Notes under the pieces: model-generated
Seen by the model: the letters and a program-made list of their open reading frames with translations, nothing else
The model's database searches: none
What the model was told of the DNA's origin: nothing
Shown: positions 12,264-64,000 of the stretch, in pieces
How the letters are laid out: every line of letters begins with the position of its first letter
Numbering within the stretch: position 1 is the stretch's first letter
Assembly (NCBI RefSeq): GCF_035083965.1
Contig: NC_089724.1
Location: 2,666,001 to 2,730,000 of the forward strand
Length of the DNA: 64,000 nucleotides
Direction: 5' to 3'
Source of the DNA: Branchiostoma lanceolatum
Lineage: Eukaryota; Chordata; Leptocardii; Amphioxiformes; Branchiostomatidae
Made by a program: the position numbers and the translations under genes

Positions 12264-15200
12264 CTTCAGTAAACAGTCTACGTTGGAAATAAGAGTACTG
12301 GTCTCTTCAAAAGCGCTCATGTTTGTTTCCTTTGGACTCCAGACTCCTTCAGCTCCTCCACCGTTGCCATGGAAACGGTGACGTCGGCCCCGCCCCTGCT
12401 GGCTGGCTACAGGACTACAGGGGTCCACACCATCCGTCCTCCGGGCGTGGAACGGCCAATCCAGGTTCTTAGAGCAGCCTCCAGTTTAATTTGGGAATTT
12501 CCTTCCTTCCTTCCTTCCTTCCTTCCTTCCTTCCTTCCTTCCTTCCTTCCTCCCTCCCTCCCTCCCTCCCTCCCTCCCTCCCTCCCTCCCTCCCTCCCTC
12601 CCTCCCTCCCTCCCTCCCTCCCTCCCTCCCTCCCTCCCTCCCTTCCTTCCTTCCTTCCTTCCTTCCTTTATGCCTTATTCTTTCCTTCCTTCGTTCATTT
12701 ATCTATTCATTCATTCATCCAGGTTCTTGAAGCAGCCTCGAGTTTAATTTGGGAATTTTAGTTTAATTTGGGACTACCTCCCTTGTTTCATGTAGTCTTA
12801 AATCCAAATGGTTTAATATCACAGTTATCATTGTTGCCCTCTGCTAGTTTTATGCAGGTAATGTAAAATGTATGCAATTCAGTCTGCGGCAGTGATGCAC
12901 TTTCAATAGTTTATCATAATAAACTTCCTTCCTTCCCTCCTTCTTTCTATCCTTTCTTCCTTCCTTCCTTCCTTCCTTCCTTCCTTCCTTCCTTCCTTCC
13001 TTCCTTCCTTCCTTCCTTCCTTCCTTCCTTCCTTCCTTCCTTCCTTCCTTCCTTCCTTCCATCCATCCTTCCTTCCTGCATTCCTTCCTTTATTCCTTTC
13101 TTCCTTATTCCTTCCTTCGTTCATTTATCTGTTCATTCATTCATTCATTCAGGTTCCCTGCGAAACGGACACCTCGGGTAGTGGCTGGACAGTAATTCAG
13201 CGCAGGTTTTTATTTATTTTCTTTTTTTATTCATTTACATCTAGGCCATGTTGATTTGATTATATGGATAATATCCCATGGGCAGCCCAAAACTGATGCG
13301 AGCATGCGAAAAAAATTGAATTCTTAATGGTTAGGAAGGTTAACGTTGAAAAATGACCAAACACTAATAATAAACTATATTTCTGTTCTGTCATATTTTT
13401 GATTTCGCTCATTAGTATCCATTTTCTGGTGTGTTTTGTTTTGTGTTGCATTTATTTGCTTATTCTGCAGCTTCTTTGTCGCAAATCCTCTCTTTTTGCA
13501 AATGGACGAAAAGTGATGCTCGCGTGGATGCCATCCATATGATTAAGTCAGTGTACATATGGCACTGCACTCTAGTTGGTAACTTATGTTAACAGCAACA
13601 TAGATGAACAAAATTAACCTAATGATTAAAAATATAATAACAATGATTAATAACGTCATGGAAACGCCCAAGAAGTCGCCCTAGAGGAAGATGGGAAGAC
13701 CAGATCTTCGACACGCTCCAAGGGCTGGGGGTCACCAGAACCGACTGGATAGTCTACACCGAGCAAACCTTGATTTATTCTAAGATTCATTTGGGAACGA
13801 ATAACCATTATACGAATGTTAACAAAAAGATAACCTAGCCCTCTACATAATGGAACGGTCGAACGGGTGTGTTATGACGTCATAACACATGGGCAATGGA
13901 GGCTTCTGATTGGTCGATGCCATCTGGCCATGTGATAATGATTGATAACATTTATTAGTCAATAGGGATTGATGTGAATTCTGAAACAAGTTTTAACTTT
14001 TAAATTTCCAACACAAAAATTGGACTTACCCCAATTTTCGACTGCACAACACCAGTCTTTGTCAATATGTGAGCAATCCACCGCTGAGATGACGTCACGT
14101 TATGCAAACGCCACACGTGACTCGGTGAGCAGTTGATCTTGAGTTGTAGAAAGTCTGTGGCGCCCCCCGTCTCTATTGAGAGATGGTTGTAAGACCCTGA
14201 TGTAAATGGCTTCCTTAATTCCTCTTGCAAGAAAGTCCGGTATTATTTGTTTATTAGCTTAGCTGTTTTGGACACACAGCCAACTAACCTGAGGCTTTTA
14301 CAAAGGGCTAGCCCTGCTGACAAGGACAAGGCAGTACAAATGCATAACGAGCTACAACAATATTCTAAATACATGAACATATTAAAAACTATCCTACATA
14401 ATAATTCAAAATATTAATAACGTCTATAATGGTGTCTACATCGGGAGGTCAGGATCAGTACGTCACAAACTACGTGTACATTGTGTGTATATATATATAA
14501 ATGGTTTTCTTCAGGAATTGACATACAGAAATTAAAACAGCATTGCAGGCGATGTTACCTTCTTTCAAGTAAACCGGCTGAATTACGCAGATTTAAGATT
14601 AAAAGTACAAAAGACCACACTCAAACAATCGGAAAATATATACAAAAGACAAAATGTACAACCAACAGTAGCATATATAACAGATTACACCTTACAAATT
14701 GGTGTTCAGTAGTTGAACACCAATTTGTCAGGTGTAATCTGTTATATATGCTACTGTTGGTTGTACCGGCTTTCATGTAACTCCTGTTTCTGCGCAGGTT
14801 TGACGGGAGTGTGAGTTTTGAGCGGCCATGGCGCGACTGCAGGGACGGGTTTGATGTAACTCCTGTTCCTGCCCAGGTTTGACGGGAGCGTGAGTTTTGA
14901 GCGGCCATGGCGCGACTACAGGGACGGGTTTGATGTAACTCCTGTTCCTGCCCAGGTTTGACGGGAGCGTGAGTTTTGAGCGGCCATGGCGCGACTACAG
15001 GGACGGGTTTGATGTAACTCCTGTTCCTGCCCAGGTTTGACGGGAGCGTGAGTTTTGAGCGGCCATGGCGCGACTACAGGGACGGGTTTGATGTAACTCC
15101 TGTTCCTGCCCAGGTTTGACGGGAGCGTGAGTTTTGAGCGGCCATGGCGCGACTACAGGGACGGGTTTGATGTAACTCCTGTTTCTGCCCAGGTTTGACG

Positions 15201-16552
15201 GGAGCGTGAGTTTTGAGCGGCCATGGCGCGACTACAGGGACGGGTTTGGTGACCCACAGGGCGAATTCTGGCTGGGGTTAGAGGTCATCCATCAGCTGGT
15301 AAGCCGAGTGGCTACAATTATATTTATGCTATCTAGGACCCCGTTCACGCACAAAAAAGTGAACCGGATCAAACATTGAGTCCGATAGAAATGATCCGAT
15401 CGCGATTGATTTTTGCAGTGTGAACGCTCCCAATCAGATTGGGTCTGGTCCAAGCGCCACTTACTGACCAGTCTAACGGATCCGAACCTTTTAAATAGCC
15501 TAGTGGTATTTAAGTGAGTTACTTGAAGCACGCTATTACAATGGGAGGATTGGACCGGCCCTTGGACTGACCCTACAAACAGTTTGGTTTATGCAAACTA
15601 TCCTTTTGTACTGTATCATTATGTACAGTAAATTGTATTCTAATGTATATTGTAATGATTCTTTACTCCATTTATTGTAGGTTCACAAGTTGTATGTCCG
15701 TCTGTACTTTTGTGGGTCAGCTGTTACCAGCGAGAGCTGCCCAGGCTGACCCAGTGTAACAACTTGTTATCATTGTCAATAGATACCAACTGCGTTGATT
15801 TATAATCAGCATATTAATCGAAGCAATAGTAGGGCCCGAAAATTGGATTTTGAAAGTCAGCTTATTTAGTCATTTCTATGCATGATTAGTTCAAACAGAA
15901 CTATGCCCGTGTATAGCGACATCCATGATGCAAAAATATGATGACGGTGTGATGTGAGAACTCACTGAAAATCGTCTCGTTTTTTTTTGTTTTTTTTGTT
16001 AAAACAGTTTTAGCAGAAACCTCCTTGGTTTTAGTAAATGTCCCTACCATATAGATTTCAGCATTTTTTTTATTTCCATTTTTTGGGCCCTAATATTGCT
16101 TTGGTTGCCTTTAAAATATATGCGATCTTCTATCACAGGTGAGCCGGGAGACTCACGACCTGCGGATCGAGCTGGGCGACTGGGAGGGGAAGGAGGCGCA
16201 TGCGCAGTACAGCCGGTTCAACGTCAGCGACGAGGCGGATGGATATCGGCTCGACTTCGGTGATTACACCGGGACCGCGGGAGACGGTCTGGCCGCTTAT
16301 GAGAAATATTCTGCCGCGGGGTCGGAAACGCAGCTGGACTATCACAAGGGCCGCGCGTTCAAGGTTTCGAAAGAAAGACAGGGCTGGTGGTACGGGGATT
16401 TCACATTGTCCAACCTGAACGGACCTTACATCAACTCATCGGTTAGTGCAGATGTACACTCTACTATTTACTGGATGCCTTGGTCGAGATGCTCCTTGAA
16501 GACCACCTGCATGATGGTACGACCAGCGACATTCGTATCTGGACGGGGGTAG
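7781..16552 (+). CDS. Type II transmembrane protein with fibrinogen C-terminal domain
   Basis: Exons read from sequence: 7781-8108, 8477-9031, 10356-10555, 11003-11095, about 12343-12464, 13153-13205, 15193-15298, 16139-16552. All junction phases agree except 11095 to 12343, where an exon is missed or a boundary is wrong. The predicted cytoplasmic part (about 330 residues) carries DNPKY (NPxY), NYTDL (YxxL) and DPYVPM (YxxM), plus about eight copies of a SEGDPENHT-type repeat. Exon 3 holds one hydrophobic segment (about 23 residues, [10 protein letters not shown] onward) preceded by KRSR, which suggests an N-in orientation. A Ser/Thr/Pro stalk follows. The ectodomain is a fibrinogen-related domain: [25 protein letters not shown] and a terminal SLKTT-x2-MVRP. 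Known of the family: ligand recognition by ficolin/FREP-type lectins. The usual NC...WWY-x2-C cysteine pair is absent. Role as a signalling receptor is inference. Confidence 0.75.
8590..8915 (+). repeat. Degenerate coding repeat, SEGDPENHT type
   Basis: About eight units of 12-18 residues around [13 protein letters not shown] inside exon 2 of the fibrinogen-domain gene. Acidic, Asn/His/Thr-rich and probably disordered; it carries several tyrosines. Confidence 0.7.
9145..9372. repeat. TG microsatellite in intron 2 of the fibrinogen-domain gene
   Basis: Interrupted (TG)n of about 220 bp, one of the longest simple repeats in the window. The Cys/Val open frames across it are artefacts. Confidence 0.9.
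9373..10355. other. Rest of intron 2, with a fragment related to the hAT MITE at 18709
   Basis: About 9990-10105 (GGCCGTAAAC, GAGCGGGCTAA, CTGTCTGGGCGGG, GCCGTAGAGATA in order) matches the interior of the MITE at 18709-18973 but lacks the terminal repeats. Otherwise nothing recognisable. Confidence 0.5.
10580..10655 (+). mobile_element. tRNA-derived SINE fragment (family B)
   Basis: TGGCGCAACGGCAGAGTGTT (A-box-like) and GAGTTCGAACCCT (B box). The same head is at 40185 and 61858 on this strand and in reverse at about 27480, 36785, 49375 and 57495. Confidence 0.6.
11096..12260. other. Intron 4 of the fibrinogen-domain gene, with a MITE
   Basis: Holds the MITE at 11691-11918 and the CA tract at about 12160-12260. 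A short exon needed to correct the phase between 11095 and 12343 may be hidden here; I could not place it. Confidence 0.4.
11691..11918. mobile_element. MITE family with GCCCCT...GGACCCG ends, copy 2
   Basis: About 40-bp inverted repeats (GGACCCGTGGCACG and CTCACTGCG matched by GTCCAGCGAGATAGGGGC and CGCAGTGAG). Internal sequence such as GGATTTGTGTTACC is the reverse of the copy at 4640-4840. Confidence 0.65.
12160..12262. repeat. CA microsatellite
   Basis: Nearly pure (CA)n of about 100 bp. Confidence 0.9.
12500..12670. repeat. CCTT/CCTC tetranucleotide tract
   Basis: (CCTT)n switching to (CCTC)n and back, bracketed by two copies of CCAGGTTCTT-x-AAGCAGCCT-type sequence at about 12461 and 12719. 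The first copy overlaps the donor of a fibrinogen-domain exon (12464), so this is another exon-edge duplication. Confidence 0.85.
12925..13150. repeat. CCTT tetranucleotide tract abutting an acceptor
   Basis: (CCTT)n ending in (ATTC)n that runs directly into the AG of the acceptor at 13151-13152. The microsatellite therefore serves as the polypyrimidine tract of the next exon. Confidence 0.85.
13247..13559. mobile_element. MITE with TTGATTTGATTATATGGAT ends, copy 1
   Basis: The left end and the right end (CCATCCATATGATTAAGTCA) are inverted repeats. A second copy is at 31027-31394, just upstream of big defensin 1. Confidence 0.6.
13652..13800 (+). mobile_element. Possible LINE C-terminal fragment
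   Basis: A frame reading [14 protein letters not shown] then [11 protein letters not shown] resembles the basic-plus-Trp C-terminus after the reverse transcriptase of RTE-like elements. Too short for a family call. Confidence 0.3.
14656..14766. repeat. 111-bp near-perfect palindrome
   Basis: Two 53-base arms pair with one mismatch around a 5-base loop (GTAGT at 14709-14713). It lies in the intron just upstream of the 79-bp acceptor array. Probably a foldback element; no clear target duplication. Confidence 0.85.
14770..15245 (+). repeat. 79-bp array repeating a 3' splice site plus 5' exon part (6 copies)
   Basis: Exon starts at 14798, 14877, 14956, 15035, 15114 and 15193, exactly 79 bp apart. 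Each unit has CTCCTGTTCCTGCCCAG (acceptor) and about 55 bases of exon encoding [18 protein letters not shown]. Only the last unit runs into the complete exon (15193-15298). As 79 is not a multiple of three, read-through from an earlier acceptor shifts frame and meets TGA at the next unit start. The first unit encodes RDCRD where the others have RDYRD. Confidence 0.9.
15299..15815. other. Last intron of the fibrinogen-domain gene, left part
   Basis: No gene. A GATCCGATCG / CCAATCAGATTGG-rich stretch at 15370-15450 may be a repeat; otherwise plain. Confidence 0.35.
15815..16110. mobile_element. MITE with AGGGCCC ends, second copy
   Basis: Same family as 5393-5756: AAGCAATAGTAGGGCCCG at the left and TGGGCCCTAATATTGCTTT at the right, with matching internal order. 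It ends about 30 bp before the terminal exon acceptor (16137-16138). Confidence 0.65.
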
Positions 16553-16754
16553 GGCTTCTTTTTGTCTGAACAAACTCTCTCAGTGCAAGGCCGTAGCATC
16601 TAAGCACTGACTAATTCTAACTGTACCAGCATCTCTTCACCCTAGATCAGAAACATCAATGCTCGAGACAAGCATCACTTCACTGACCCATTAGGAGAAG
16701 CAGGGCTTACGAAGGCTTGTGCCTTAACCTCCTTGCCCATTCACACCGCAAGCT

Positions 16755-16910
16755 CGAGAGAACCATTCCTAATCTCTGAACGGCCCGTACATCAACTCAT
16801 CACTCCCTGCACATGTTAGCTCTATTCACTGGAGATCTAGGTCGAGATAATCCCTGAAGTGCATCTGTATGATGGTGCGACCAGCCACAGTCCTACCTCT
16901 GTAACATATT
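16755..16910 (+). pseudogene. Decayed copy of the fibrinogen-domain terminal exon end
   Basis: CTGAACGGCCCGTACATCAA, CTATTCACTGGAGATC, CATCTGTATGATGGT and GACCAGCCAC follow the order of 16420-16540 with frameshifts and substitutions. A downstream tandem duplicate no longer able to encode the domain. Confidence 0.65.
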
Positions 16911-17084
16911 GTGGGTTCAAAACCCTCCAGAACTCAAAATAACCCTGGGAATCAGTCCAATAGGAGGTCAGGATTCTCTGTCACCATGGAAACCAGTCAT
17001 TAAAGCCTCCGACACCATGGTAACAGACAGTTCTCATTCTGACAGTAGTAGGTCGATGTTAGTTCAAGCTTTCTATAGCAAGAC

Positions 17085-17280
17085 AGTATGGGGACTTCAC
17101 GTTATCCAATCTGAACGTCCCGTACATCAATTCATTAGTCCCTGCAAATGTAAGCTCTATTCATTGGAGATCTTGGTCGGGATTTTCCCTGAAGTCTACC
17201 TGTATGATGGCACGACCAGCGACATTCGTATGTGGACAGGAGTAGGGCTTTTTTTTTTAACGAACTCGCTCAGGGCAAGG
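17085..17280 (+). pseudogene. Second decayed copy of the terminal exon end
   Basis: Matches the end of the terminal exon: GGGACTTCACGTTATCCAAT, CCCGTACATCAATTC, CTGTATGATGG, GACCAGCGACATTCGTATG, GTAGGGCTT. It is about 330 bp from the first decayed copy, so the end of the gene has been tandemly duplicated twice. Confidence 0.65.
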
Positions 17281-17640: not shown

Positions 17641-17689
17641 TAGGCCTCAGACACTTCAGTATTTTTATCTGTATATAGCCGGTATAACC

Positions 17690-18305
17690 GAACTTTAGCG
17701 CAATACATCAGCTTCTGTATCTGTAGTATCTATAAAGCTGGTAGAAACGCCTTCGGTGTAACACACCAGTCACCAGCTTCTGTATCTTTATATAGCCGGT
17801 ATAAACGCCCTTTGGTGTAACACACCAGCTTCTATATCTGTATCTGAATAGCCAGTATAAACGCCCTTTGGTGTAACACACCAGCTTCTATATCTGTATC
17901 TGAATAGCCGGGTATAAACGCCCTTTGGTGTAACACACCAGCTTCTATATCTGTATCTGAATAGCCGGTATAAACGCCCTTTGGTGTAACACACCAGCTT
18001 CTATATCTGTATCTGAATAGCCGGGTATAAACGCCCTTTGGTGTAACACACCAGCATCTATATCTGTATCTGAATAGCCGGGTATAAACGCCCTTTGGTG
18101 TAACACACCAGCATCTATATCTGTATCTGAATAGCCGGGTATAAACGCCCTTTGGTGTAACACACCAGCTTCTATATCTGTATCTGAATAGCCGGGTATA
18201 AACGCCCTTTGGTGTAACATACCAGCTTCTATATCTGTATCTGAATAGCCGGTATAAACGCCCTTTGGTGTAACACACCAGCTTCTGTATCTGTATCTGG
18301 CCAAC
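17690..18305. repeat. 57/58-bp tandem array, about 10 copies
   Basis: Unit contains TATAAACGCCCTTTGGTGTA, ACACACCAGC and TCTATATCTGTATCTGAAT. Units alternate 57 and 58 bp (GCCGG or GCCGGG). Open in antisense, but no codon or product evidence; a minisatellite. Confidence 0.9.
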
Positions 18306-18708
18306 CACTAGGATTCAGTATCTGTAACGTGTAAGTTACCGGCCTGTTAAACGGAACATACCAGCTTCAGTATCTGTACCTTCTGTGATTCTGTATCTGT
18401 ATCGTCGTATTTCATTGATGGACATTAAGACCTTGAGGGCTTAAGTCTGTTAACACAAGTCTGTTGTCAGAATTAAAAGCGGAAATAGAAACAAAGTATA
18501 CGTACAGCACACTGTTTCCTTAGTAGCTTTACTGCACAAATACATTTTACAACATTATCGTTATACCCAATGATAATTCCATTGGATAACTTATTACATG
18601 TGATTCCAGTTTTAACTTCTGCATGAAGTAACAGTTCATTATTCCTAGACTTAGCTTCAGTGTAGTTGCCACCAACTTGGTAAGTGATGTTAATCTACCA
18701 CACTAGTG

Positions 18709-18973: not shown

Positions 18974-18981
18974 CACTAGTG

Positions 18982-24320: not shown

Positions 24321-24324
24321 AAAT

Positions 24325-25060
24325 TACTGCCTTAACGGGAACACATGCACACCGCAACACGTACCCCGTTCGACCAAGTGTCGAATCGGGAAATAATACA
24401 ACACTCCCACTTGGCTTAATGCCTTACCGGGAACACATGTACACAACAACACATACCCTGTTCGACAAAGTGCCGAACCCGGGAAATAACACTCCCACTT
24501 GGCTTAAACTGCCTTACCGGGAACACATGTACACAACAACACATACCCTGTTCGACCAAGTGTCGAACCCGGAAAAAACACTCCCACTTGGCTTAATGCC
24601 TTACCGGGAACACATGTACACAACAACACATACCCTGTTCGACAAAGTGCCGAACCCGGGAAATAACACTCCCACTTGGCTTAATGCCTTACCGGGAACA
24701 CATGTACACAACAACACATACCCTGTTCAACAAAGTGCCGAACCCGGGAAATAACACTCCCGCTTGGCTTAATGCCTTACCGGGAACACATGTACACAAC
24801 AACACATACCCTGTTCAACAAAGTGCCGAACCCGGGAAATAACACTCCCGCTTGGCTTAATGCCTTACCGGGAACACATGTACACAACAACACATACCCT
24901 GTTCAACAAAGTGCCGAACCCGGGAAATAACACTCCCGCTTGGCTTAATGCCTTACCGGGAACACATGTACGCAACAACACATACCCTGTTCGACAAAGT
25001 GCCGAACCCGGAAAATAACACTCCCGCTTGGCTTAATGCCTTACCGGGAACACATGCACA
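24325..25060. repeat. About 88-bp tandem array, about 8 copies
   Basis: Unit contains CTTACCGGGAACACATGTAC, AACACATACCCTGTTC, AAAGTGCCGAACCCGG and CACTCCCGCTTGGCTTAATG. Outer copies are more diverged. It lies between the two shared segments at about 23.1 and 27.3 kb. Confidence 0.9.
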
Positions 25061-25359
25061 CATTAACACATACACAAAATAACACATACTCACCTGCCAA
25101 AACCGGGACACACAACAGGGAAAATTACGAAATGCAGAAGTAAATAAACAACAACGAAAACATTCACAACGTAAAAGGGGAAAGCAAAACAACAATCAAA
25201 TATTTTGTCAAAACATTAGAGAAACGCAATCACGACAAAAAAATATATTACAGAGCTCAACAAAGCAATGATAATTTCGTCATAACTCATGTAAATCAAA
25301 ACTAGAGAGGGCGACACGAAACTGTAGGGATCTCTTGTGAGAAAGCGTACACCTGTGTA

Positions 25360-30676: not shown

Positions 30677-31026
30677 GCTGAGGACTGTCTCACGGGTTTC
30701 CAGTGGTTGAGAGACAGGTGACAGCGCAGTTCAGCTTTTCACGTTGATTCGCTACTCTGACAGACAGGTTGGTGTGTTTCTATTTCTTTATCGTCTTGCT
30801 TTTCTTTTAATCTTATCGTACTTTCTTCACCTTCGCTAAGGTACTTATGTTGTCCTAGCCTCCTTTGCAGGCTGTTGGTCGCCGTCGGTGTTTATTTTTG
30901 GGCGGTGGTGTGTTTTTTTTTTTGGGGGGGGGGGGCACAGCCGTCAATTAAGATTTCTCCTGCAATAGAACCTGGCCCCGATATGTTGAGAATCGCGAAT
31001 CAGCCCCCGATAGTTTTGAATCAGAT

Positions 31027-31394
31027 CATGCTGATTTGATTATGTGGATGACATCCTCTGGAAACCCCAAAACTGAAGTTTGGCAAAAAATTTGCCTTCG
31101 TTGTGAAATTTGGTCAGGAAGTTAGACCAAATGAATAAACACAGTGTATGGTCTACCGAAAAATACATTCTAATCATTTTTTCTTGCACATTTTCTTCTT
31201 TGTCTTTGGAATTTACTTTTGCATACTACGATATAACCATCCATTTCCCTAAATATTTTTTTTGCAATTCACGGCATATATTTGCTACTTTGCAGCTGTT
31301 TTGTACCATGTACAGTTTAGTCGAAAACTTTTTTTGGGAAACGCACGAAAATTGGTGCGCGCGCGGATGTCATCCATATGATCAAATCAACATG
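31027..31394. mobile_element. MITE with TGATTTGATTATGTGGATG ends, copy 2
   Basis: Left and right (CATCCATATGATCAAATCAACA) ends are inverted repeats. Same family as 13247-13559. Its right end is 28 bp from the first exon-2 unit of big defensin 1, in intron 1. Confidence 0.65.
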
Positions 31395-31398
31395 GCAT

Positions 31399-33148: not shown

Positions 33149-33189
33149 TAAGGTACCTCATCCTCCCGTTAACGTTAGCTCCCATAGTG

Positions 33190-45576: not shown

Positions 45577-45824
45577 CTGGTGACGGGTTTAACTACCGTT
45601 AGTACAACAGTCCAAGTGTGGTACGTAACAATTCCTAAACATACAGGGTACACTTCTGTGTGAGAAAAGATAGATGATAATATGTATGGTTGCTGGTGAC
45701 GGGTTTACCTAATCATTAGTACAACAGCCCAACAGTCCAAGTGTGGTACGTAACATCCTAAACATACATGTAGAGTTCCATGTGAGAAAAGATAGATGAT
45801 ACACTGTAGATTAGATAGATAGAA

Positions 45825-49800: not shown

Positions 49801-50739
49801 GGCCCTCTTACGGGCGTTTGAATCGTAGAATTCGGCAGCAAAAGGAATAATTAGCCAGTAGAGTCAGTCCACAGTGAAGATCACATTTCGCCCGTTTAGG
49901 GCCTTGCAAGTGAAACCCTGGCGTAGTTAGTCTGGTAGAGACTATGTTAACTTTATTTGCACGCACAAAATGATATACTCAGGTAAATAAGAAAGGAGCA
50001 GGGGGCAGGACGAAAACCTGTCAAAAGGCTTGAACACCCGACATGCACGCTATCAGAAAGGGTCGCAGACATTATAAAGGGACGTTAAAACGTGGTCCAC
50101 TGTTCGTTGTGCTTGTCAAAAAGAGCTAGGGGAATTTCCCTGTAAATACTGTACAAAAGTACTTCTTGGTCACGACCAGGGGAAGAACAGCTCTTCAGTG
50201 AGCTAAACTGGATCGAGATCACTTTCTTTCACTTAATTTGTCCTTACCTGTTTCCTGGTGGGTAAGGGGGGATGCGGAGCCATGTTCGACTATGTGTATC
50301 CGGGGCTTTAAGAACTTTTATAGTCGTGCGTGTCAGTATTAATTCTCTATGCTTAATACATGTATTGGTCTAATAAAACAAAACATCAACTGGGCAGGAT
50401 CAGGTCCAGGTTCAGGTCCGGACCTGAACCTAAATGTCTGGACCTTAACTTGGACTTGGACCTTATTAAGCCGAACCGGTATCCACCCCTAGTGTATGTG
50501 TATCCGGGGCTTTAAGAACTTTGCTATCCTGTCCTTACCTGTCTCCTGGAGGGTTTGGGTGGGATGGGTGGACGCGGCGACGTGTTACCCCCGGAAGTCG
50601 GCCGGGGCGGAACGGTGGGCTGGTACTTGGACTTGACATTGGTGTAGTCCTTGAAGAGGTCGACCTCCTGGATGGGGGAGGGGGGCGGGGAGGGCAGGGA
50701 CTCGGTCGCCGTCTTGGAAAGAGGACTTGTGCTCCACAC
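46885..50739 (-). CDS. ANKS1: ANKS1 proline-rich linker and PTB-domain exons
   Basis: Exons 50739-50539 ([20 protein letters not shown]), 49726-49595 ([21 protein letters not shown]), 48894-48823, 48221-48135, 47622-47485 and 47058-46885 ([20 protein letters not shown]). The PTB fold runs from YLGSM to the last helix, the usual position at the ANKS1 C-terminus. PTB domains bind NPxY peptides. The proline run suggests SH3 partners (inference). Confidence 0.9.
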
Positions 50740-53700
50740 CTGAAGGAGGTCCAAGGGTTTTGGAGACATTTAGAGAGCAAGTCTATATATTGAAAGTCAT
50801 AGATGACTGGAATATCAAACAAATGCTGAGTCAAAAATCTTTACAAAGGACAACAATCAGAGATAGCAGGCTCAAGCCCCTTCGTTATACTGTATAATGT
50901 CTTAACTTCATTATGAATTGCATATACGCACTCAGCACTTATCTCAACATCTGAAGGAGACCATAGTTTGTGAAGACATTTTGAGATGGCGGCAATTCTA
51001 AATATTGAAAGTCGCAGATGATTGCAATATCGAACAAATGCTGCATCCAAAAACAATCAGAGATACAACTGTAGCAGGCTTAAGCCCCTTTGATACACTG
51101 CAGTATCAACGTAATGTCTTGTTCTATATGAATCATCATAATTAAGTTCTTTTTTTTTTACTTTTTAAAAAAAGTCAAAGCAAAAATTGGGGTACTAAGG
51201 TACTAAGGGATTTACCGTGGTCTCCTCAGGTGACATCTCCTCAGGCATCTCGTCCCGTTCGCGCTCGCCAATAGACGCCAGGATTCTCTTCCTGTGGCCC
51301 AACGTAGTGATCTCCAACACCTGCAAAACATAACAAAAAGTACTGCTACGGTGACCAAAATCACCATCTTTCCTAATATACATAATGGGACCTCTGAGTC
51401 AGTACCTATGTACCCACACACCATATATATATATATATATTATATGATATATAGAGATGACTCTGTGTTTGGTGTATTTCCAACATCTAAAATACTACCC
51501 CAGGTCCTGTAAATCTTGAACAAATAAATCTACAATATCATGAGCAAAAAAACAACAACAAAAAACAATCTTCACTTACGTTGAGTTCCACCTCCCACAT
51601 TTTGCGCACCCTGTCCATGGAGATGACACCATTTTTGGTGAAGTATTCCCCACATTTAACATACTACACTTAAGTCTTGTAAATCTTGAACAAATGAATC
51701 TACAATATATATATATATATATCAGGCGCAAAAAAAACCAACTTACGTTGAGTTCCACCTCCCACATTTTGCGCACCCTGTCCATGGAGATGACGCCATA
51801 TTTGGTGAAGCACTCCCCTCATTTAACATACTACACTTAAGTCTTGTAAATCTTGAATAAAAATGAATCTACAATATATAATATATTATATATTAGGCAC
51901 AAAAAAATCCACCTCCCACATTTTGCGCACCCTGTCCATGGAGATGACGCCAATATTTGGTGAAGTACTCCCCATATTTAACCTACTACACTTACCTTGT
52001 AAATCTTGAACAAAATTAATGAATCTACAATATAATATATATATCAGGCATAAAAAAAAAACTTACGTTGAGTTTGACCTCCCACATTTTGCGCACCCTG
52101 TCCATGGAGATGACACCATACTTGGTGAAGTACTCCCCATATTTAACCTACTACACTTAAGTCTTGTAAATCTTGAACAAATGAATCTACAATATAATAT
52201 ATATATCAGGCATTAAAAAAAAACTTACGTTGAGTTCGACCTCCCACATTTTGCGCACCCTGTCCATGGAGATGACACCATACTTGGTGAAGTACTCCCC
52301 ATATTTAACCTACTACACTTACCTTGTAAATCTTGAACAAATGAATCTACAATATAATATATATATCAGGCATAAAAAAAAAACTTACGTTGAGTTCGAC
52401 CTCCCACATTTTGCGCACCCTGTCCATGGAGATGACACCATACTTGGTGAAGTACTCCCCATATTTAACCTACTACACTTAAGTCTTGTAAATCTTGAAT
52501 AAATGAATCTACAATATATATATATATTAGGCACAAAAAAAACAACTTACGTTGAGTTCCACCTCCCATATTTTGCGCACCCTGTCCATGGAGATGACGC
52601 CATATTTGGTGAAGTATTCCCCACATTTAACATACTACACTTAAGTCTTGTAAATCTTGAATAAATGAATCTACAATAGGCACAAAAAAAACAACTCACG
52701 TTGAGTTCGACCTCCCACATTTTGCGTACCCTTTCCATGGAGATGACGCCATGCTTGGTGAAGTACTCCCCGTATTCCAACAGCTCTAGGGACTCCAACC
52801 ACTCCTCTATGCTCTCTGGGACGGGGGAGTGGTGCTCCCCCTCCCCCTCCCCCATGGGCAGCAGGGTGGGGAGGGACGCCGTGGCCGAGAGGATGGCTTC
52901 GCGGTGGGCGGGGTCGACCACGCCCATTTCTACCAAGTCCTGGTCCTCCAAGATGCTTCCTCCCTAAATAACAATTCAAGAGTCACTTTTAACTGTCATA
53001 ATAGGGAACTGTTCACTTACTATTGACAGTCACCAAACCACGTTTTGTGGTTTCCTCGCTTCAAGAATGGACTGTACAGTTTGTGTACTTCTGATATTAA
53101 TTGCTTGGTACGTGATGTGTATATTTTGCTTTTGTTTCATGTTCAAAATTGTCAGCAAACTCTGCAATCATTATTCAGGGTGTTTTTCCCCTGCCCATGT
53201 ACATTTGAGCTTGGTGGTGATGATAATAAATGTATCAAAAAGAGGGAAAATTAGGTGAACACGCTAAAAGCTAACATGCGCAATGTCTGACCCTTTGGAA
53301 AAGCACTCTATACCTATTTCTTCACATGACTCACTGACAGGTAAAATTGAGTACGGTGAAATTGAATAGCTTTGGCTAGGGGCATCCTCTTGGATGGGAC
53401 ATTAAGGTGGTTTACCAGTTGTGCGAAACAAACAAAATGGTCTGCCCTGCCTAGGAGGATGTGAAATTTACTGACCATGAACTTGAGGTTGTCGAAGCCG
53501 TGGCTGACGAATACGTTTTCGTACTGCTGCAGGTCCAGCAGCTGCAGCCACTCGCCGACCGTGCGGGGGTTGGAGACACCTGCGGGAGGGCGGGAATCAG
53601 AAACGTGTCACACAAATGTACGCACACACATGCTTAGCTGCCACTCGCCGGGGGTTGGAAACGCCTGCGCGGGGGCAAGAACCGAAAAGGTGTCTAGTTC

Positions 53701-56700
53701 AACATATTACTGTAACAGTGCTTACTGTATCTCCCAATGCTCATAGCTTGTGCGGATTTGGTTGAATCCCAGCTGTGTCGCTCATCCAACATGCATTATG
53801 CTACTGGAAAGGGTTGCAGTACTTATAAGGACAGGATGTAAAGCCATGGTCAACTGTTGATTGTTTCTCTCAGGCTGGTACAATGAACCTGTAAATACTG
53901 TACATACATGCATCGTCTGTCTTCTCTGTCAACACCAGTGGAAGAACAGCTCTTCTGTGAGCTAAACTGGTTTGAGATAACAATCACTTTCAAAAATATC
54001 AGAAACTCTTCTCACCTCGGATGAGCTGCTGGAAGTTGCCCTCCAGCTTAGCGGAGTAGAAGGACTCCCTCACCAGGCCACCGCCAAACGACGACATGAT
54101 GTTGGCAATCTAAGAAATAAACAGTAAAAAACCTAGCAAAGGTAACATTTGCAAGCAAACACATGGTCAACCCTTTTTTCCTAGCTCTCAGGCCCTTACA
54201 ACCATTCCATCCACAGGCATTAGAGCTGTGTACCTAAACAAATTTTAGGTACAGGTACAGGTACACGGGTTAAGGTACAGGTCCGGACCTGAACCTGTAC
54301 CTAAACTGCTTGTTCGGAAAATGCTAGATTTTCAATAGGGACAAAAGCATGTTTGAACCGGTAAAAACATAATATTTGATCGTGCTAGGTATTATTTTCA
54401 GGGAAACACAGATGAAAATTTTACTCCAGCCTTGCAAATGTGTTTTCTGTGCTTCAGAGTGGCTTTAGAGCACTGCCACGGTAATTTCATAGTAATTTTA
54501 TCTGTCAAAGTGGCCATCCCCTGAGTCAGGTCCAGTACCGATACAGCAGGGTCAGGTATTTTGGACCTGTACCTAATTGATTGTACCCGGTACTGTATCG
54601 GTACAGTGTACCGGTACACAGCTCTAACAGGCATACATGTACATTTTCAGGCCTAAGTTTCCTACACGTACAGACTATTGAAACCAAAAAGACTTGACAT
54701 GTACAGGTCCATATCTATATTTTGTATATGGAACAGTTTGCCTTATAGTGTTCAATCTGCTAGTAAGTCTGAGTTTTGGCAGGAGCTTCTCAATGTACAT
54801 AAACCAGTCGATTTGATCTGATGTACAAAATGTAGAATGTCAATATTAGGCTGGCTGTAATGACTTTTATGTAGTTTGTATGTCTTATGTGTTTTATGTC
54901 CAGGAAGATTAGCTGCTTGCAAATCTTGTATGTTGGCTAATTCTCTAAATGAATGAATGAATGAAGACCTTTATTGCACATTTCTGCCACACTTGGCTAA
55001 GTAAAGGTCACAATAAAACAAAATAACAAGTACAAAAGAATATGACTATCATTAGATAAATTCTACTTCTCCTCGCTTTTCGGTTATAGTAAGTATAAAA
55101 GAACAGACATGTTTTCAATGGGAGGTTTGTCTAGTCGCATTAGGAATATGAATTTTTGTACAGTACTTAAATGTGTGAAGTAGGGAAATAGGTTTTCTAC
55201 AAGCTTATACTGTAACAGTTCATTTCTTTCTTATACAGTTCATTTCTTAATGAAGAATCAAAGTATCCAAGTTTCCTACCTGGTCCCATTCGGCTGTTTC
55301 GTCCACGGGCTGCTCGAACCCGCTGTCCTCCCGTTCCCTGGCGCCGTTGCTGTCGGCATTGAGCTCCGCCGTCTCCGTGATGATGGCGTCGAAGTCCGGC
55401 ATGCTCGGGGAGCTCGGGCTGGGGGAGGGGAACGGCGACGCGTCGGAACTCGCGCTGTCCCGATCTTCCGTGGACGTCAGCTCCGATTCAGAGTCTTCAG
55501 AGGAAAAGGAGATAAAGTAAGTTACCGTTAAGCTGCAAGGCCTGGTTATATCAGGGATACAGAAAACTGCATTGCGTGTGTGTAGCGCACGAAACGTGGA
55601 ATTCAGGGGGGTTAGGGCCGCCGGCCGTTTCGCGGGTTTAGTGAGGGAGGTCAGGGGTCAAACATTTATGAAATTTATTTTCGAATTTGGGTGATGATGG
55701 CGTCGAAGTCTGGCATGCCCGGGGACGTCGGGCTGGGGGAGGGGAAGGGCGACGCGTCGGAACTCGCGCTGTCCCGATCTTCGGTGGACGTCAGCTCTGA
55801 TTCAGACCCTGCCCAGGAAAGGAGATCATTACAAATTAAAACCCTTAAGTTGCCAGGCCCAGATATATCAGGGATACAGAAGCATGCCCTGTGTACCGTG
55901 CCCGGTTATAACCGGGATAGAGTATTCCCTGGAAAAAAATAGCATTGTGTGTGTGTATAGCACGCAAAGGCCGGCTGTTTCGCGGGTTTTGTGAGGGAGG
56001 TCAGGCCAAACAGTCACACACACAGAACTTTAAGTCCAGTTCAGATCCGGTGTTTAGGTACGCAGCCCTACACACACAACCACACTCACATGCACTCACG
56101 TACACACAGAGACGTGGATTAATACTCTACTTGGGGTTAACTGAAAAGCAAACGAGACATGAATCGTACCTTCGTTTGCCATCTCCTGCTTCAGCACTGA
56201 CTCATACAGGATCGACGAGACGCGGCTCTGCGTCTTGGGGTTGGAGCCGTGGCATAGGGCTGGGGAGAACACAGGAGAATAAGCTACAATAAATTATTGT
56301 AGTTCATAGTACAAAATATGCATGCCCTGTGTGATACATACACAATGTATTGCACTGGTAACATAATGTCTAAGTTGAAGGCATGACACGGCTCACAGAA
56401 ACATTAGCAGAGAAAAACAATGAATTGTGGTTGTGTAACTCAAATAAGAAGAACTCAATATAAATAAAAACAACCATGATTATTGTCAGCTTTTGTAGCT
56501 TGTTCTATTGCACGCACAAGCACACATGTACAAAGAATTGACAGCAAGAAACAGAAAGATATAAACAGTAGGAATTAGAAATACCCACAAAATTTTAGAA
56601 GATCATCGACATACACCATACACCACAGAGAGATCTTGAGACTGAGAGATATTTGTTTTGCTAAAAAGGCCTCTGATGCTGGTCAAAGTAGCAAAATAAG

Positions 56701-59700: not shown

Positions 59701-62700
59701 GGCTTCCTCCTGGGACAACCTTTTCCACACAGGGCTCACCTCGGGCGGTGCGAGGCTGTCCTTTGCACCATTGTTCTTGTGCCTGTCTAATGGCTGACTT
59801 CCATCTGTACCCTCTGTTACTTCACTCCTGCCCATTGCAACTGAATCCTCGTGCCTGCTTGTGTCTGACTGCTCTGTCTGCTCATAGCTGCCCTGCGCAG
59901 GGATATCCCTGTGCCCGTCTGTGACAGTCCCTGCGTTTCCTGACGCCCTTTCCTGGAGTTTGCCGTTTCCCGGGAGGGGGAAGAACCTCTGATGGATGGT
60001 GTTCTCGGCGGTGTTGGCCGAGGGCGGGGGGTGGTCCGGCGTCGGAGGCTGATGAAGATGAATGATTTATTTTGTCAATACATTGCTCAAAAATACAATT
60101 TTTGCACTTTGCAAATGATAGAAGAGGACCGTGATTTAACGTTTAAAGAAAAGTTACTGTTAGTAGTAGAAACATTTTTTTTCAAACGTTATATCGCGGT
60201 CAGCTCCTATCATTTCCAAAGTGCAAAAAGTGTCAATCTGAAAACATCTTTTAAAAGCTGACACCTTCCAGCATCTCACTGGCTGTTTGTTTTGCCAGAT
60301 TTAGTCGTTAAAGCAAGCTAGGAAGCAATTTGTCGGGTCATGGCTGATTCGAATCTGAGTTTCAAAGAGGTTTGATTGGTCGGGGTGTATTTAGTGACAA
60401 AGAGATGAACCATAAGAGAATTTACGGAACATATTCTTCTGAGACCTAAAAGAATTCTTTGACATCATATGCCAACCTGGCTGTAACCCGTTGGACTGAG
60501 CGGTGTGGATGCCCCGCCGTCCGAGGTCGGTGACTGGTCGAACTTGAAGACGAGGCTTCGCCGCGGCTGCCCGGACATCGCTTCGGACAGGAGCTCGTAG
60601 GCGCTTCCCGAGGAGCTCCCGCTGTGGCGCTCCTCGACCTGCTGGAGAAGACAGAATAAGTGAAAGTGGTCTTGATGTCTGAAAGTGGCCTTGAGAAGAC
60701 ACAAAAAGTGACATCGCTTCAGACAGGAGCTCGTAGGCGCTTCCCAAGGAGCTCTCGCTGTGGCGATCCTCGACCTGCTGGAGAAGATACAAAAAGTGAA
60801 GGTGGACTTGAACCTTGAGTAGACAAAAAAAATTGGCAGTGCCCTTTAAGTGGTCTTGAGGTCTGAAGGTGGCCTTGAGAAGACAAAAAAAGTGAAACTG
60901 ATCTCAAACCTTGAAAAGACCAAGAAAAGTGAAAATGATCTCGGACCTGAAGAAAACATTAGAAAGTAAAAAATTCTAAAACTGGAGAACTTCAAGACAA
61001 AATTAGTGAAAGTGGTCTCGTACCTTGAGAAGACAAAATAAGTGAAAGTGGTCTCGAACCTTGAGAAGACAAAATAAGTGAAAGTGGTCTCGGGAAGACA
61101 ATAGAAAGATGTGCGTTTATCAATTACCTTGTCTTCCCTGCCCCTGAAGAGTTCGATCGGTGGTTCGTCGTACAAGTTCTCGTCATCCGAAGACGACAGC
61201 GTTCGCGGGGGAGGCCCGGGAACGCCGTCATCGTCTCCCAGGTTGTGGTATGGGCTGGGGAGAGGCTGCGGCACATTGTCGTACGGACTCTGAACCTGTA
61301 TTTGTATTAATTTTGTATTTATTGACAATGAGACAAATCATTACACTGGGTAAGCCTAGGCAGCTCTCGCTGGTAACGGCTGACCCACAAATACAGACAA
61401 ACATACAACAGTACATAACCTGCAATAGAATCATTACACTATCATAATACATACATAGTTAATACAATACAATACAATGCATAATAATACAGTATAAAAT
61501 CATTGGACTCAATAACTACCATGCAAATATATAAAAACATTGTCATAATGAAATCGTAGGGGGAATGGTCTAGTATAATCTATAGCATTGTGGTGGAATA
61601 GATGGAAGGTTGACCTGTTCCGGCGAGCTGTCCGTCACGGCGTCGCGGGCGGAGTCCAGGCTTCCGATCGGTAGGCACAGCTTGTTCATGTGGTCTGGGG
61701 GGAACCGATCAAGTTACATTTTGTTACCTAATACAAAAACAGTGGACTACTACTACACCTGGTGTCCAGTTTTCTCATGATTTGTAAGATCAACACAATT
61801 CATGAGTACATATAGCAAATTCTTACATATAAATTATGTGTATTTCAGAATCTGGGGTCGTGTGGCGCAACGGCAGCGTGTTCCGCTCAGAACCAAGTGG
61901 TCCCGGGTTCGAATCCTGCCGTGTCAACGATCTTGTGCCCTTAGGAGAGGCACTTTACATGACTTTCCCAACATGCCAAAATGGTCGCCATCACGACCGT
62001 GGGCACTAAAGGCAAGAAGAATCTGCAATGTTGGTTTTAAACGAATAAAGACTGAAAGATTGAAGATCCAGCACTTCAAAAAACTAAGGGAGAAAAAGAA
62101 GCTGATTTCAAAGACTATCTAGGGGAAACAGATCAAGTTACTTGTTTGAAAGCATGGATCAGTGTCCCCTTAGCTTGGAGCTACAGACTGTACAACAAAA
62201 TTCTCTCTTCAATTGCAGACTGTGTTATAGTGTTGTTGTGTTAAATGTGTCCAGTTTTCTACTTGGTTCTTGCACGATTTGTAAGATCAACACAATTCAT
62301 GAGTATATGTACATTCTTGAATAAATTATGTGTATTTCTACAATGTCATTTTAAACGAATAAAGATCGAAAGACTGAAGATTGAAAGCATGCTAGTTAGA
62401 AGACTGAGAACGGAAGAGAGCAGACTTACGCAGACTGGGCTTGGAAGGTGGATCATTATTGTTAGATCTGACTTCTGTGCAGCGAAGAAGAGTTCAGGAG
62501 AGACAGAGACTGAGTGATGATGTGAGAATGACTGTGACTTTGTCTGATTTGATGTTAGATATGGAAAGACATGAGAAGTTGCAAGGAACAGAATACTGTT
62601 ATCTAATCTAATAGTATACACTTTGTGCAAAGTCATCAGAGAATTCGAAGACGCCCTGTAGAGGTCGTGAAAAATCCCTGTAGAGGTCGTACAAATGTAC

Positions 62701-64000
62701 CTTTGATCAGCTTGGTGATCTCAGAAGCTTTGGGGATCCCCGCCAGCAGATCCAGAACCGTCTGTGCAGATTTGTCCTGGATCAGGGGATCCACACCTGG
62801 AGCAGAAAGGGGAAGATAAAATATAAATAGATTAAAGATGATTCAAGATGTCTACAAGTCATGTTTATTGGTTTGTTGCAGTTTAACAAACTGAATTAAA
62901 AACCATTAGTTAAGTTGGAGGATGGAGGCCCCGTGTTTGAGGAGAGTCACACCTTGGGCACTTAAAAGAACCCACTACATCTTTCGAAAAAGGGTAGGGG
63001 CATGCTCGATTTGAGTGGATCGACACATACTGGCCTAAATGGGGTAGGGAATTTCCCAAGTAGCCTTAGTTCGTAACCCCTTCTTCTCCTAATGGGTCAG
63101 TGAAGTCATGCTTGTCTCGAGCAGTGATGTCTCTGGCCTAGGGCGAAGAGATACTGCTACAGTAACAATTAGTTCAGTGCTTAGAGGAGTGGCCGCCTTC
63201 GGCCTTGCACTGAGCGAGTTTGTTAAAATAAAGTCTCCTGTATGACCTACCACAGTCCAGCAGAAGTTGGATTGATTTATTTATTTATTTATTTATTGAT
63301 TTATTGATTGGTTGATTGATTGATTGATTGATCGGTTGATTGATTGATACCTACCACAGTCCAGCAGCAGTCTGACTATGTCCACCTTCCCACAGAGAGC
63401 AGCCTCGTGCAGGGCAGAGCCGTTCTCAGTCTGAAACACAACAGTTTTGTAACGTTAACACAGAAAACTTTATTGCCCGACAATTGTACATGGTACAATG
63501 TTCATGTATGGCAATGACTATTAAACAAAGTACAAAATAGAGGTATAGAATTAAAACTTATTATAGTAACATCCTAATTACTTAATTAAATACAATAAGG
63601 GCGAGCAAAAGTCTTTGATATACAAGTCATGTACTGGTACAATCCAGTGGGGTTAATCATGTATTGAGTTTCTGTATTTTTTCTAATGACAAAGCAGTAT
63701 TTTAAATATCTTCCTTATAAATTCCAAAACATTCCGGGGGAGGATGCCTTAGACCCCCCCTATAACACTCGCCCCTGCAGTCCTCACCTTTCCAGCGCTC
63801 GCCATGCGGCGTTGGCGCAATAAGATGTCTCCAGACTACGCTGTGAAAAAATCCTGGTGAGAACCCTCGATACCGAAACTTACCGTCTTGTTGACGTCGA
63901 TGCCGGCCTCCAGCAAGACCTGCACCACAGGTTTGTGTCCGTTGCGCGAAGCCAGGTGCAGGGGGGTGGACTGGCCCCCCGGCCGATCGAGCAGGGTGGG
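46885..64000 (-). CDS. ANKS1: ANKS1-family protein (ankyrin repeats, two SAM domains, PTB), 5' partial
   Basis: Nineteen coding exons on the minus strand, all phases consistent: >64000-63884, 63430-63355, 62796-62701, 61694-61615, 61295-61128, 60641-60477, 60048-58914, 56259-56170, 55494-55280, 54109-54016, 53579-53476, 52963-52700, 51320-51216, 50739-50539, 49726-49595, 48894-48823, 48221-48135, 47622-47485, 47058-46885. Together about 1,170 residues. Order: C-terminal part of the ankyrin array, a long low-complexity linker, SAM1, SAM2, proline-rich linker, PTB domain. Diagnostic stretches: [18 protein letters not shown] (SAM1), [14 protein letters not shown] (SAM2), [12 protein letters not shown] and [13 protein letters not shown] (PTB). 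Vertebrate relatives ANKS1A (Odin) and ANKS1B (AIDA-1) are cytoplasmic or postsynaptic scaffolds acting with receptor tyrosine kinases such as Eph receptors. A single gene would fit the pre-duplication state. The 3' end is uncertain (46729 or 45424). Confidence 0.9.
47163..47439 (+). mobile_element. SINE family A fragments in an ANKS1 intron
   Basis: Two truncated copies: CTGTAAATACTGTACATAGC at 47174 and GAGCTAGGGGAATTTCC...CTTTCCTTTCC at 47301-47439. A duplicated acceptor-side intron segment (TTTTTGATTTAAGCCACGCT, again at 47228) lies between the exon at 47058 and these fragments. Confidence 0.6.
49375..49530 (-). mobile_element. SINE family B fragment, reverse orientation
   Basis: AGTGCCTTTCCCAAGGGCAC and GGGGATTGAACCTGGGTC, ending CTGCCACTATGCCACAC (A-box complement). 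Confidence 0.6.
49789..49944. mobile_element. MITE with TAGCCTCCACCAGGC ends, copy 2, TGTTAACTT duplication
   Basis: Same family as 34649-34858. TGTTAACTT flanks both ends (49780-49788 and 49945-49953). Confidence 0.75.
50036..50228 (+). mobile_element. SINE family A, 5'-truncated
   Basis: CACCCGACATGCACGCTATC onward through GAGCTAGGGGAATTTCCCTG to the CTTT tail; the tRNA-like head is missing. Confidence 0.65.
50245..50322 (-). pseudogene. Duplicate of an ANKS1 donor edge
   Basis: CAGGAAACAG/GTAAGGACAA copies the end and donor of the exon ending at 50539 (CCAGGAGACAG/GTAAGGACAG). The flanking TGTATCCGGGGCTTTAAGAA also occurs at 50297 and 50497. An ATG (50284) followed by an open stretch of 12 codons precedes the donor, so a short alternative exon is possible. 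Confidence 0.55.
51575..52700 (-). repeat. Array of SAM2 exon end plus 5' splice site, 7 extra copies, period about 160 bp
   Basis: The true exon ends at 52700 (GAACTCAAC/GTGAGT). Partial copies with about 80 bases of exon end at 52551, 52389, 52229, 52067, about 51908, 51747 and 51580. Six keep a GTAAGT donor; the one at 51908 has lost it. All copies encode [15 protein letters not shown] whereas the true exon has [15 protein letters not shown]. Each unit also contains an intron part with (TA)n and ACACTTAAGTCTTGTAAATC. Confidence 0.9.
52700..56259 (-). CDS. ANKS1: ANKS1 SAM-domain region exons
   Basis: Exons 56259-56170, 55494-55280, 54109-54016, 53579-53476 and 52963-52700. SAM1 spans the 53579 and 52963 exons ([14 protein letters not shown] ... 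[17 protein letters not shown]). SAM2 starts in the latter ([17 protein letters not shown]) and finishes in 51320-51216. Phases run 2/1, 2/0, 0/1, 2/0, 0/0 and all match. Confidence 0.85.
53634..53695 (-). pseudogene. Duplicate of the SAM1 exon acceptor edge
   Basis: GGGGGTTGGAAACGCCTGCG resembles GGGGGTTGGAGACACCTGCG at 53564, the first bases of the exon starting at 53579 with its acceptor. Confidence 0.65.
53745..53990 (+). mobile_element. SINE family A, diverged
   Basis: GGTTGAATCCCAGCTGTGTC (B box), ACATGCATTATGCTACTGG, CTGTAAATACTGTACATAC and the GAGCTAAACTGGTTTGAGAT end. Confidence 0.65.
54115..55275. other. ANKS1 intron
   Basis: About 1.2 kb. Contains a self-complementary GGTACAGGTACAGG / GTACCGGTAC-rich stretch at about 54245-54625. 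No exon seen. Confidence 0.45.
55691..55815 (-). pseudogene. Duplicate of an ANKS1 acceptor and 5' exon part
   Basis: From 55808 downward this repeats about 115 bases of the exon starting at 55494 (TCTGAATC-GAGCTGACGTC ... GACTTCGACGCCATCATCAC). An acceptor CTGGGCAG and the same phase are kept; a stop codon follows and there is no donor. The flanking intron is duplicated too (unit about 310-380 bp). Confidence 0.75.
56265..58900. other. Long ANKS1 intron
   Basis: About 2.65 kb. Contains a duplicated GGTGCACC(A/C)... segment near 56910 and 57200, a SINE B fragment at 57495-57605 (reverse), and otherwise AT-rich sequence. No coding exon seen. Confidence 0.5.
58914..61694 (-). CDS. ANKS1: ANKS1 linker exons, including one of 1,135 bases
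   Basis: Exons 61694-61615, 61295-61128, 60641-60477 and 60048-58914. The first three encode YDNV and YDEPP tyrosine motifs and a Ser/Pro-rich stretch. The large exon (378 codons) is acidic and Ser/Thr-rich, with a Lys/Gln-rich helix-like run ([17 protein letters not shown]). Probably disordered. The tyrosine motifs could be phosphorylation or adaptor sites; that is inference. Confidence 0.8.
60085..60395. mobile_element. MITE related to 40681-41077, in an ANKS1 intron
   Basis: GTGCAAAAAGTGTCAATCTG, GCTGACACCTTCCAGCATCT and TTTGTCGGGTCATGGCTGAT match the right half of the 40681 element. The outer left arm is lost; the inner hairpin remains. Confidence 0.7.
60713..60783 (-). pseudogene. Duplicate of an ANKS1 acceptor and 5' exon part
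   Basis: CCAG/CAGGTCGAGGATCGCC...CTGTCTGAAGCGATGTC repeats the first about 70 bases of the exon starting at 60641 (with its acceptor), 140 bp upstream of it. Homology stops inside the exon, so no donor follows. Confidence 0.75.
61700..62695. other. ANKS1 intron
   Basis: Holds SINE B (61858-61990) and a partial duplication (TTTGTAAGATCAACACAATTC at about 61781 and 62277). No exon seen. Confidence 0.45.
61858..61990 (+). mobile_element. SINE family B copy in an ANKS1 intron
   Basis: TGGCGCAACGGCAGCGTGTT, GGGTTCGAATCCTGCC, TTGTGCCCTTAGGAGAGGCA and CACTTTACATGACTTTCC: the most complete head in the window. Confidence 0.65.
62701..64000 (-). CDS. ANKS1: ANKS1 ankyrin-repeat exons
   Basis: Exons >64000-63884, 63430-63355 and 62796-62701. 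They encode [20 protein letters not shown] and [19 protein letters not shown], two typical ankyrin repeats, then the end of the array ([18 protein letters not shown]). Earlier repeats lie beyond the right edge. The phases (0, 1, 1) carry through to the linker exon at 61694. Confidence 0.85.
63244..63352. repeat. Duplicate of an ANKS1 donor edge plus TTGA/TTTA simple repeat
   Basis: GACCTACCACAGTCCAGCAG at 63246 repeats the last exon bases and donor of the exon ending at 63355. The gap between the copies is filled by (ATTT)n/(TTGA)n. Confidence 0.7.

Follow-up and report, generated by a model that had tools for sequence, protein, structure and literature searches.

The window, by which we mean the whole 64-kb stretch of Branchiostoma lanceolatum DNA analysed here, lies on a 34.4-Mb contig, has a GC content of 0.441 and was put forward since the pattern described below was already visible in it. 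Three of its genes are considered: a fibrinogen-domain gene on the plus strand (7781-16552; Fibrinogen_C domain match), big defensin 1, also on the plus strand (30717-33150; Defensin_big match), which has a paralogue at 38 kb, and an ANKS1 orthologue on the minus strand (43990-64000), which encodes ankyrin, SAM and PTB domains and has introns with a GC content of 0.397. The 5' part of ANKS1 falls outside the window, and 40 of its junctions lie inside. The ANKS1 model of 20 exons, the splice sites of which were read by eye, runs for more than 1170 codons without a stop and matches the predicted protein P0001 (1417 aa) at a rounded 100% over the query, one residue being different; exon 21 was supplied by P0001, which also places the exon 6 acceptor 3 bases upstream of the site initially chosen. 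This acceptor is of the NAGNAG type (CCAGCAG/G, 60638-60646; a slash in a motif marks the splice site), and the use of its upstream AG by P0001 yields one extra glutamine; CCAGCAG is also present in the intronic copy of the same acceptor. Big defensin 1 is identical to the B. lanceolatum protein P0223 at 118 of 118 residues. The fibrinogen-domain gene was compared with two B. floridae x B. belcheri proteins: at least one of them aligns with each of exons x1-x3 and x6-x9, and neither aligns with exon x4 (11003-11095). The B. lanceolatum protein Hypp1670 (P0121) matches the first three exons of this gene (7781-10555) at 84-87% and is perhaps encoded by a tandem paralogue.

Comparison of the window with itself (gapped alignment, score of at least 30, offsets 12-500) returned 112 matches. 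Control bands of the same width, placed at offsets between 3 and 40 kb, yielded 0.95 matches on average with a mean of 0.67 times the number of position pairs, so that nearly all of the 112 matches represent real local duplications. Three long head-to-tail arrays at exon/intron junctions, described in a sequence-only reading that preceded this analysis, were recovered by TRF with units of 79, 167 and 162 bp. The array of the fibrinogen-domain gene (14767-15251, plus strand) consists of six 79-bp units (TRF: 6.1 copies, 14767-15248), each comprising the acceptor CAG/G and the first 59 bp of the exon, and the last copy, with its acceptor at 15192/15193, runs on into the exon. Big defensin 1 carries six units of 167 bp (31412-32381, plus strand; TRF: 5.7 copies, 31415-32378), composed of the acceptor TTTTCAG/GAC and 115 bp of exon that hold the start codon and signal-peptide codons; its last copy, with the acceptor at 32266/32267, is the one represented in P0223. 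At ANKS1 exon 12 (51451-52776, minus strand), eight copies of approximately 162 bp and a degenerate ninth (TRF: 7.5 copies, 51574-52776) each contain the last 77 bp of the exon, the donor and the start of the intron. The first exon of the second big defensin gene (38165-38956) is 89-92% alike to the array copies of big defensin 1, and the self-comparison scan finds no local duplication in that gene.

ANKS1 additionally contains smaller duplications, all on the minus strand, and each of the seven single ones listed in the sequence-only reading (63355, 60641, 55494, 53579, 50539, 47058 and 45576) was found in the self-comparison. The exon 2 donor (site 63355; 63245-63371) has one extra copy of 23 bp at offset 104 (96%). 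The exon 6 acceptor (site 60641; 60574-61108) was copied together with 68 bp of exon (offset 136, 91%), and intron 5 also holds, upstream of exon 6, a 36-bp array of acceptor-tract units that had escaped the earlier reading. The acceptor of exon 9 (site 55494; 55377-56005) was copied along with bases 3-118 of the exon, a stretch of 116 bp (offset 314, 85%), and that of exon 11 (site 53579; 53544-53694) recurs at offset 85 (78%). The exon 14 donor (site 50539; 50239-50566) was duplicated at offset 291, along with a 28-bp intron stretch at offset 204. For exons 19 (site 47058; 47063-47365; offset 152) and 20 (site 45576; 45577-45801; offset 116, 82%) the intron side of the acceptor was copied, the right edge lying no more than 5 bp from the AG in the former and at the AG in the latter. 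Two further ANKS1 events were absent from the earlier reading: the exon 14 acceptor (50739) with approximately 18 bp of exon (50722-51120; offset 212, 70-74%), and one extra copy of the intron side of the exon 4 acceptor (61694-62381), the right edge of which at the AG depends on a 24-bp pair with a score of 33 against the cut-off of 30. We read the 61694 and 62022 pairs as one exon 4 event split by a SINE-like insert. By eye, a tRNA-like SINE sequence is visible inside one of the exon 4 acceptor copies, at approximately 61850-62010 in intron 3.

In the fibrinogen-domain gene, a whole intron, from the exon end at 12464 to the exon start at 13153, was tandemly duplicated (12459-13152, plus strand), and its copies join at ATCCAG/GTTC, which by eye resembles both splice sites. 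A ATCCAGGTTC-like stretch is, again by eye, clearly shared at the breakpoints of this intron only, the other copies being too diverged. In the same gene, an 18-bp repeat starts at the donor GT that follows the first coding exon (8109-8143, plus strand). Neither was listed in the sequence-only reading. Across events, the duplicated units range from 18 to approximately 280 bp. Donors as well as acceptors are affected, as the sequence-only reading had stated, and the asymmetry between the 9 acceptors and 3 donors is not significant (P 0.15).

Exon edges that have no splice site are copied as well, in two cases that the sequence-only reading had not listed. In the fibrinogen-domain gene, the first coding exon has a degenerate copy of its start (7762-7871) upstream, at 7531-7644 (81%; 7531-7871 overall, plus strand), and the end of the last exon, the stop codon region (16415-16541), has two degenerate copies downstream (16415-17230 overall, plus strand). 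These edges bear on the proposal that exon edges and intron ends reach the adjacent intron through a copying process that is RNA-templated or coupled to splicing. Three acceptor duplications that end at the AG or no more than 5 bp away, and the whole duplicated intron, the copies of which meet at AG/GT, are consistent with such a process. However, the placement of unit edges at the splice site is no commoner than expected by chance (5 of 13 within 6 bp versus 3.0 expected, P 0.14), and the junction copies are unspliced, local and inclusive of intron sequence. Since the unspliced outer edges at 7531-7871 and 16415-17230 show the same behaviour, RNA-templated repair, which the earlier reading had offered as an explanation, is not needed, and we regard it as very improbable. 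Two long minisatellites with 57-bp and 88-bp units and copies 92-94% identical (17651-18381 and 24324-25073, respectively) sit in no recognised gene, so the arrays in the window are not all located at junctions. A zinc-finger gene (446-3769) contains in-frame 33-bp repeats (SQDKMATNSEP-like) within a coding exon.

Duplications of this type have a precedent in amphioxus, where such minisatellite-like copies are called mirages, as the sequence-only reading had pointed out. Mirages in amphioxus Adh3 are said to have been described by Canestro et al. in 2002, and troponin C, as cited elsewhere, is reportedly a further mirage gene. The precedent is borne out by PMC3087553 and PMC3902484. According to passages of the former, tandem duplications at exon/intron boundaries in amphioxus were named mirages and occur in Adh3, globins and other loci; one globin gene carries units of 150-160 bp, of which one haplotype has 6 and another 3, and normal mRNA was reported for the Adh3 and globin mirages. 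Passages of the two papers together describe units of 10-160 bp in one to several copies, and amphioxus PGBD5 is stated to contain 60- and 108-bp splice-site repeats, the copy number of which varies between two assembly versions (PMC3902484). The duplications in the window share with mirages the genus, the cephalochordate host (B. lanceolatum), the anatomy and the involvement of both donors and acceptors. The window differs from the published cases in that three genes are affected within 64 kb, two-copy and array forms stand side by side, and unspliced gene edges are also copied.

The splice sites within the intronic copies are mostly intact, which would be expected if the copies were decoy or regulatory sites maintained by selection. 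In the exon 12 array, six of the seven full intronic copies keep AAC/GTAAGT, the real donor being AAC/GTGAGT, and GTAAGT is nearer to the donor consensus than GTGAGT; in the fibrinogen and big defensin 1 arrays, all five upstream copies in each retain the CAG/G acceptor. Against this, one full exon 12 copy lacks its donor, and splicing to a decoy would disrupt the reading frame in every case that was scored, with a frameshift or stop in 10 of 10 ANKS1 events examined (for exon 12, the first decoy only) and in 5 of 5 fibrinogen decoys. P0001 and P0223, the two predicted proteins of this genome that span such sites, both follow the exon-proximal copy; splice-site use and array copy number are in this sense apparent values, as read from the assembly and the predicted proteins. 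Moreover, the parts of the copies that stem from the exon have diverged about as much as those that stem from the intron. Divergence amounts to 4.5% in the exon-derived and 4.6% in the unique intron-derived part of copies 1-6 of the exon 12 array (4.8% versus 11.7% in an earlier count that included a low-complexity stretch and the last copy), and to 4.5% and 3.8%, respectively, in copies 2-5 of the big defensin 1 array. No constraint on intronic copies is thus seen in the two arrays compared, and the copies change as neutral intron would, which argues against the decoy sites under selection that had been suggested; we find such selection hardly credible. By eye, intronic copies of ANKS1 exons 6, 9 and 12 sometimes keep the residue of other lancelets at positions where the functional exon has changed (60574-60711, 55377-55494 and 52700-52776). 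This is not predicted by plain neutrality, although the numbers are tiny, and other sites show the opposite, leaving too few to judge.

The claim that tandem duplications are enriched at junctions stands for the window when duplications are counted as events, and falls when they are counted base by base. Duplicated sequence covers 11 of the 58 junctions tested, or 19%, which equals the coverage of intron interiors (shift test P 0.43), and seven further thresholds likewise gave no base-level excess at junctions (P 0.41-0.77). The null of this comparison is inflated because the intronic copies of junctions count as intron: an eight-copy junction array scores as one junction and more than 1 kb of 'intron'. 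By event, 13 of the 16 duplications counted in the three genes touch a junction or come to within 6 bp of it (expected 4.46, P 4e-6), and 10 extend across one by 5 bp or more in both directions, as mirages do (expected 3.92, P 6e-4). In all, 14 of the 58 junctions are touched and 44 are not.

The event count involved decisions set by hand, namely unit lengths, the copies to be collapsed and the edges counted as junctional. Arrays inside coding exons (8556-8906 and those of the zinc-finger genes), simple repeats of 1-6 bp and the TG repeat at 9179-9348 were excluded. The main count also omits the outer edges at 7531 and 16415, the 18-bp repeat at the donor near 8109, and the donor of fibrinogen exon x7, to which the sole link was a 70% match that runs across a microsatellite. 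A conservative version, in which four weaker junction events were dropped and the outer-edge events at 7531 and 16415 were added as misses, still places 9 of 14 events at junctions (expected 3.73, P 2e-3). Addition of six short tandem repeats, including the one at 8109, gives 14 of 22 (expected 4.88, P 7e-6), and with the ANKS1 exon 4 event left out the count is 12 of 15 (expected 3.96, P 8e-6). The junction excess is taken as real within the window, which was chosen for the pattern.

That choice gives room to an account by ascertainment and survivorship alone, whereby duplications arise at random, those in intron interiors decay or break up, and a junction-rich window was picked. Junction events stay visible for longer because selection holds one exon copy, and the presence of intergenic duplications of 71-81% identity indicates that random duplication is common. 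The equal raw coverage of junctions and introns points in the same direction, as does the remainder of ANKS1 once the junctions named in the earlier reading are set aside, with 2 of 9 events at junctions versus 1.5 expected, a count biased downward by construction since hits were removed. The detection bias was simulated for ANKS1 alone, by aligning just the two known copies instead of scanning the whole sequence, and over per-copy divergences of 0-0.5 it averaged 1.52-fold, or 1.19-fold when size-matched. It is large for very old copies, reaching 2.7-fold at divergences of 0.2-0.3 and more than 10-fold beyond 0.3, but its average of 1.2-1.5 fold is too small to produce the observed counts: the event excess persists when junctions are given a weight of 3 (P 0.008) or even 4 (P 0.031). 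It also remains among copies at least 90% identical, with 5 of 6 events at junctions when judged by the top pair (expected 1.18, P 9e-4) and 8 of 9 when any stretch of that identity is accepted (expected 2.47, P 8e-5). Ascertainment and survivorship alone are a possible but doubtful account, and tolerance by itself does not account for the higher frequency of events at junctions than in intron interiors.

A different account is that exon edges are a mutational hot spot for tandem duplication, owing to the GC step, a nucleosome boundary, G4-forming exons or transcription-linked nicks. The maximum-likelihood estimate of the junction excess is 15-fold (support interval 4.6-68), and the excess persists among the most alike copies. 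Intron interiors contain fewer events (3 in 14.9 kb) than intergenic sequence (14 in 26.7 kb), at P 0.09, or at P 0.04 if the 62022 pair is merged into 61694 to leave 2 interior events; this count omits an inverted repeat at 36469 and the zinc-finger coding repeats. A strict G4 motif occurs in 3 of 33 exons (ANKS1 9, 12 and 14), every one of which has a mirage (Fisher P 0.052). On the other hand, the window was picked post hoc, and the five events absent from the earlier reading are not significant by themselves (3 of 5 at junctions, expected 1.54, P 0.16). Exon-side GC, intron-side GC, the GC step, the G4Hunter score and exon length fail to separate the 14 touched from the 44 untouched junctions (lowest P 0.07), breakpoints are not clustered at the junction, as given above, and a similar excess could arise if mobile elements rapidly replace the sequence of intron interiors. 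The sequence-driven hot spot previously put forward thus keeps the strict-G4 exons on its side and loses composition, G4Hunter score and exon length. These counts suggest that duplication may hit junctions at a higher rate than intron interiors, while a hot spot at exon edges as their cause seems to us rather unlikely. No structured RNA was detected as an Rfam match at the gathering threshold.

The duplications are probably best understood as mirages in the sense of local tandem DNA duplications that include one exon edge and are tolerated as the exon-proximal splice site stays usable. They would originate by ordinary tandem duplication of DNA, through slippage or end-filling repair, and some may grow into arrays through unequal exchange. 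Duplications within coding exons would mostly be purged, while those that cross an edge would survive because the copy joined to the exon body still gives normal mRNA. Exon definition, which picks the exon-proximal splice site, would select that copy and leave the remaining ones to become neutral intron. The lack of constraint on the copies and the duplications at unspliced gene edges argue against selected decoys and splicing chemistry. The window is confirmed as a dense example of already known mirages, with a junction excess that is unexplained. Mirages have so far been reported gene by gene, and no estimate of their density in amphioxus was found in the titles, abstract openings and passages of the literature surveyed. 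This window, which is not random, provides one (14 of 58 junctions, or 5 of 30 introns by the cut-off used in birds), together with a test based on events instead of bases.

That cut-off stems from work on exon stuttering, which was described by Hron et al. (2026) on chicken dot chromosomes in 115 genes and 236 introns. According to passages of this paper, 190 of 5,572 dot-chromosome introns (3.4%) contain exon stuttering, more than 90% of the copied exon pieces lie no more than 1 base from the exon border, and the causes proposed, GC-rich replication stress or meiotic exchange, are speculative (PMC12954441). The words 'mirage', 'lancelet' and 'Branchiostoma' are absent from its main text, and the literatures on lancelet mirages and bird stuttering are linked here. 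As in the bird passages, part of an exon and the adjacent donor or acceptor are copied locally through the intron as imperfect tandem repeats that measure tens to hundreds of bp, with the coding exons intact (PMC12954441). Comparison of exons with adjacent introns by BLAST, under our own settings, gave 19 hits of at least 42.1 bits, the bird cut-off, against a shuffled maximum of 30.1; 17 of them have their source at distance 0 from the exon border and the other two at 2 and 7. The hits fall within 5 of 30 introns of a chosen window, as compared with the 3.4% given in the passages on birds. The host chromosome differs, the window, with a GC content of 0.441, lying on a 34.4-Mb contig of ordinary GC rather than on a GC-rich dot microchromosome, and intron-only stuttering, common in birds according to the same passages (PMC12954441), is represented in the window by few events.

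If mirages and bird stuttering were one process, the explanation of the latter by GC-rich chromosomes would be insufficient. A broader reading takes exon edges as a splicing-independent duplication hot spot of chordates, with mirages and stuttering as a single process that does not require GC-rich microchromosomes; we consider this unlikely. Any tandem duplication that includes part of an exon and persists without damage to the coding exons must cross the border, and border sources alone are therefore no evidence for a hot spot. Such evidence lies in the rate of events in intron interiors, that is, in their deficit, and this is relevant to the bird result too.

Other systems in which exon sequence is found in introns are less similar. 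In amphioxus VCBP3, introns were noted ('data not shown') to contain whole exons or parts of exons that resemble adjacent exons and in some cases have canonical splice sites, and, unlike mirages, these pieces are neither called tandem nor named in the passages concerned (PMC2632668). Introners and other dispersed elements are rejected within the window: unlike introners, the duplications have no similar copies scattered among introns of unrelated genes in the four genes tested, where the five distal exon-to-intron hits of at least 30 bits all involve big-defensin paralogues. Internal gene duplication has reportedly been connected with intron gain by Gao and Lynch in 2009. Intron gain by tandem genomic duplication is described for potato RdRp in passages of PMC4974935, and there, as in the window, the duplicated piece lies inside a gene and carries splice signals. 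In the intron gain described in these passages, a duplicated proto-splice site gives rise to a new intron, whereas in the window an existing junction is copied and the position of the intron is unchanged.
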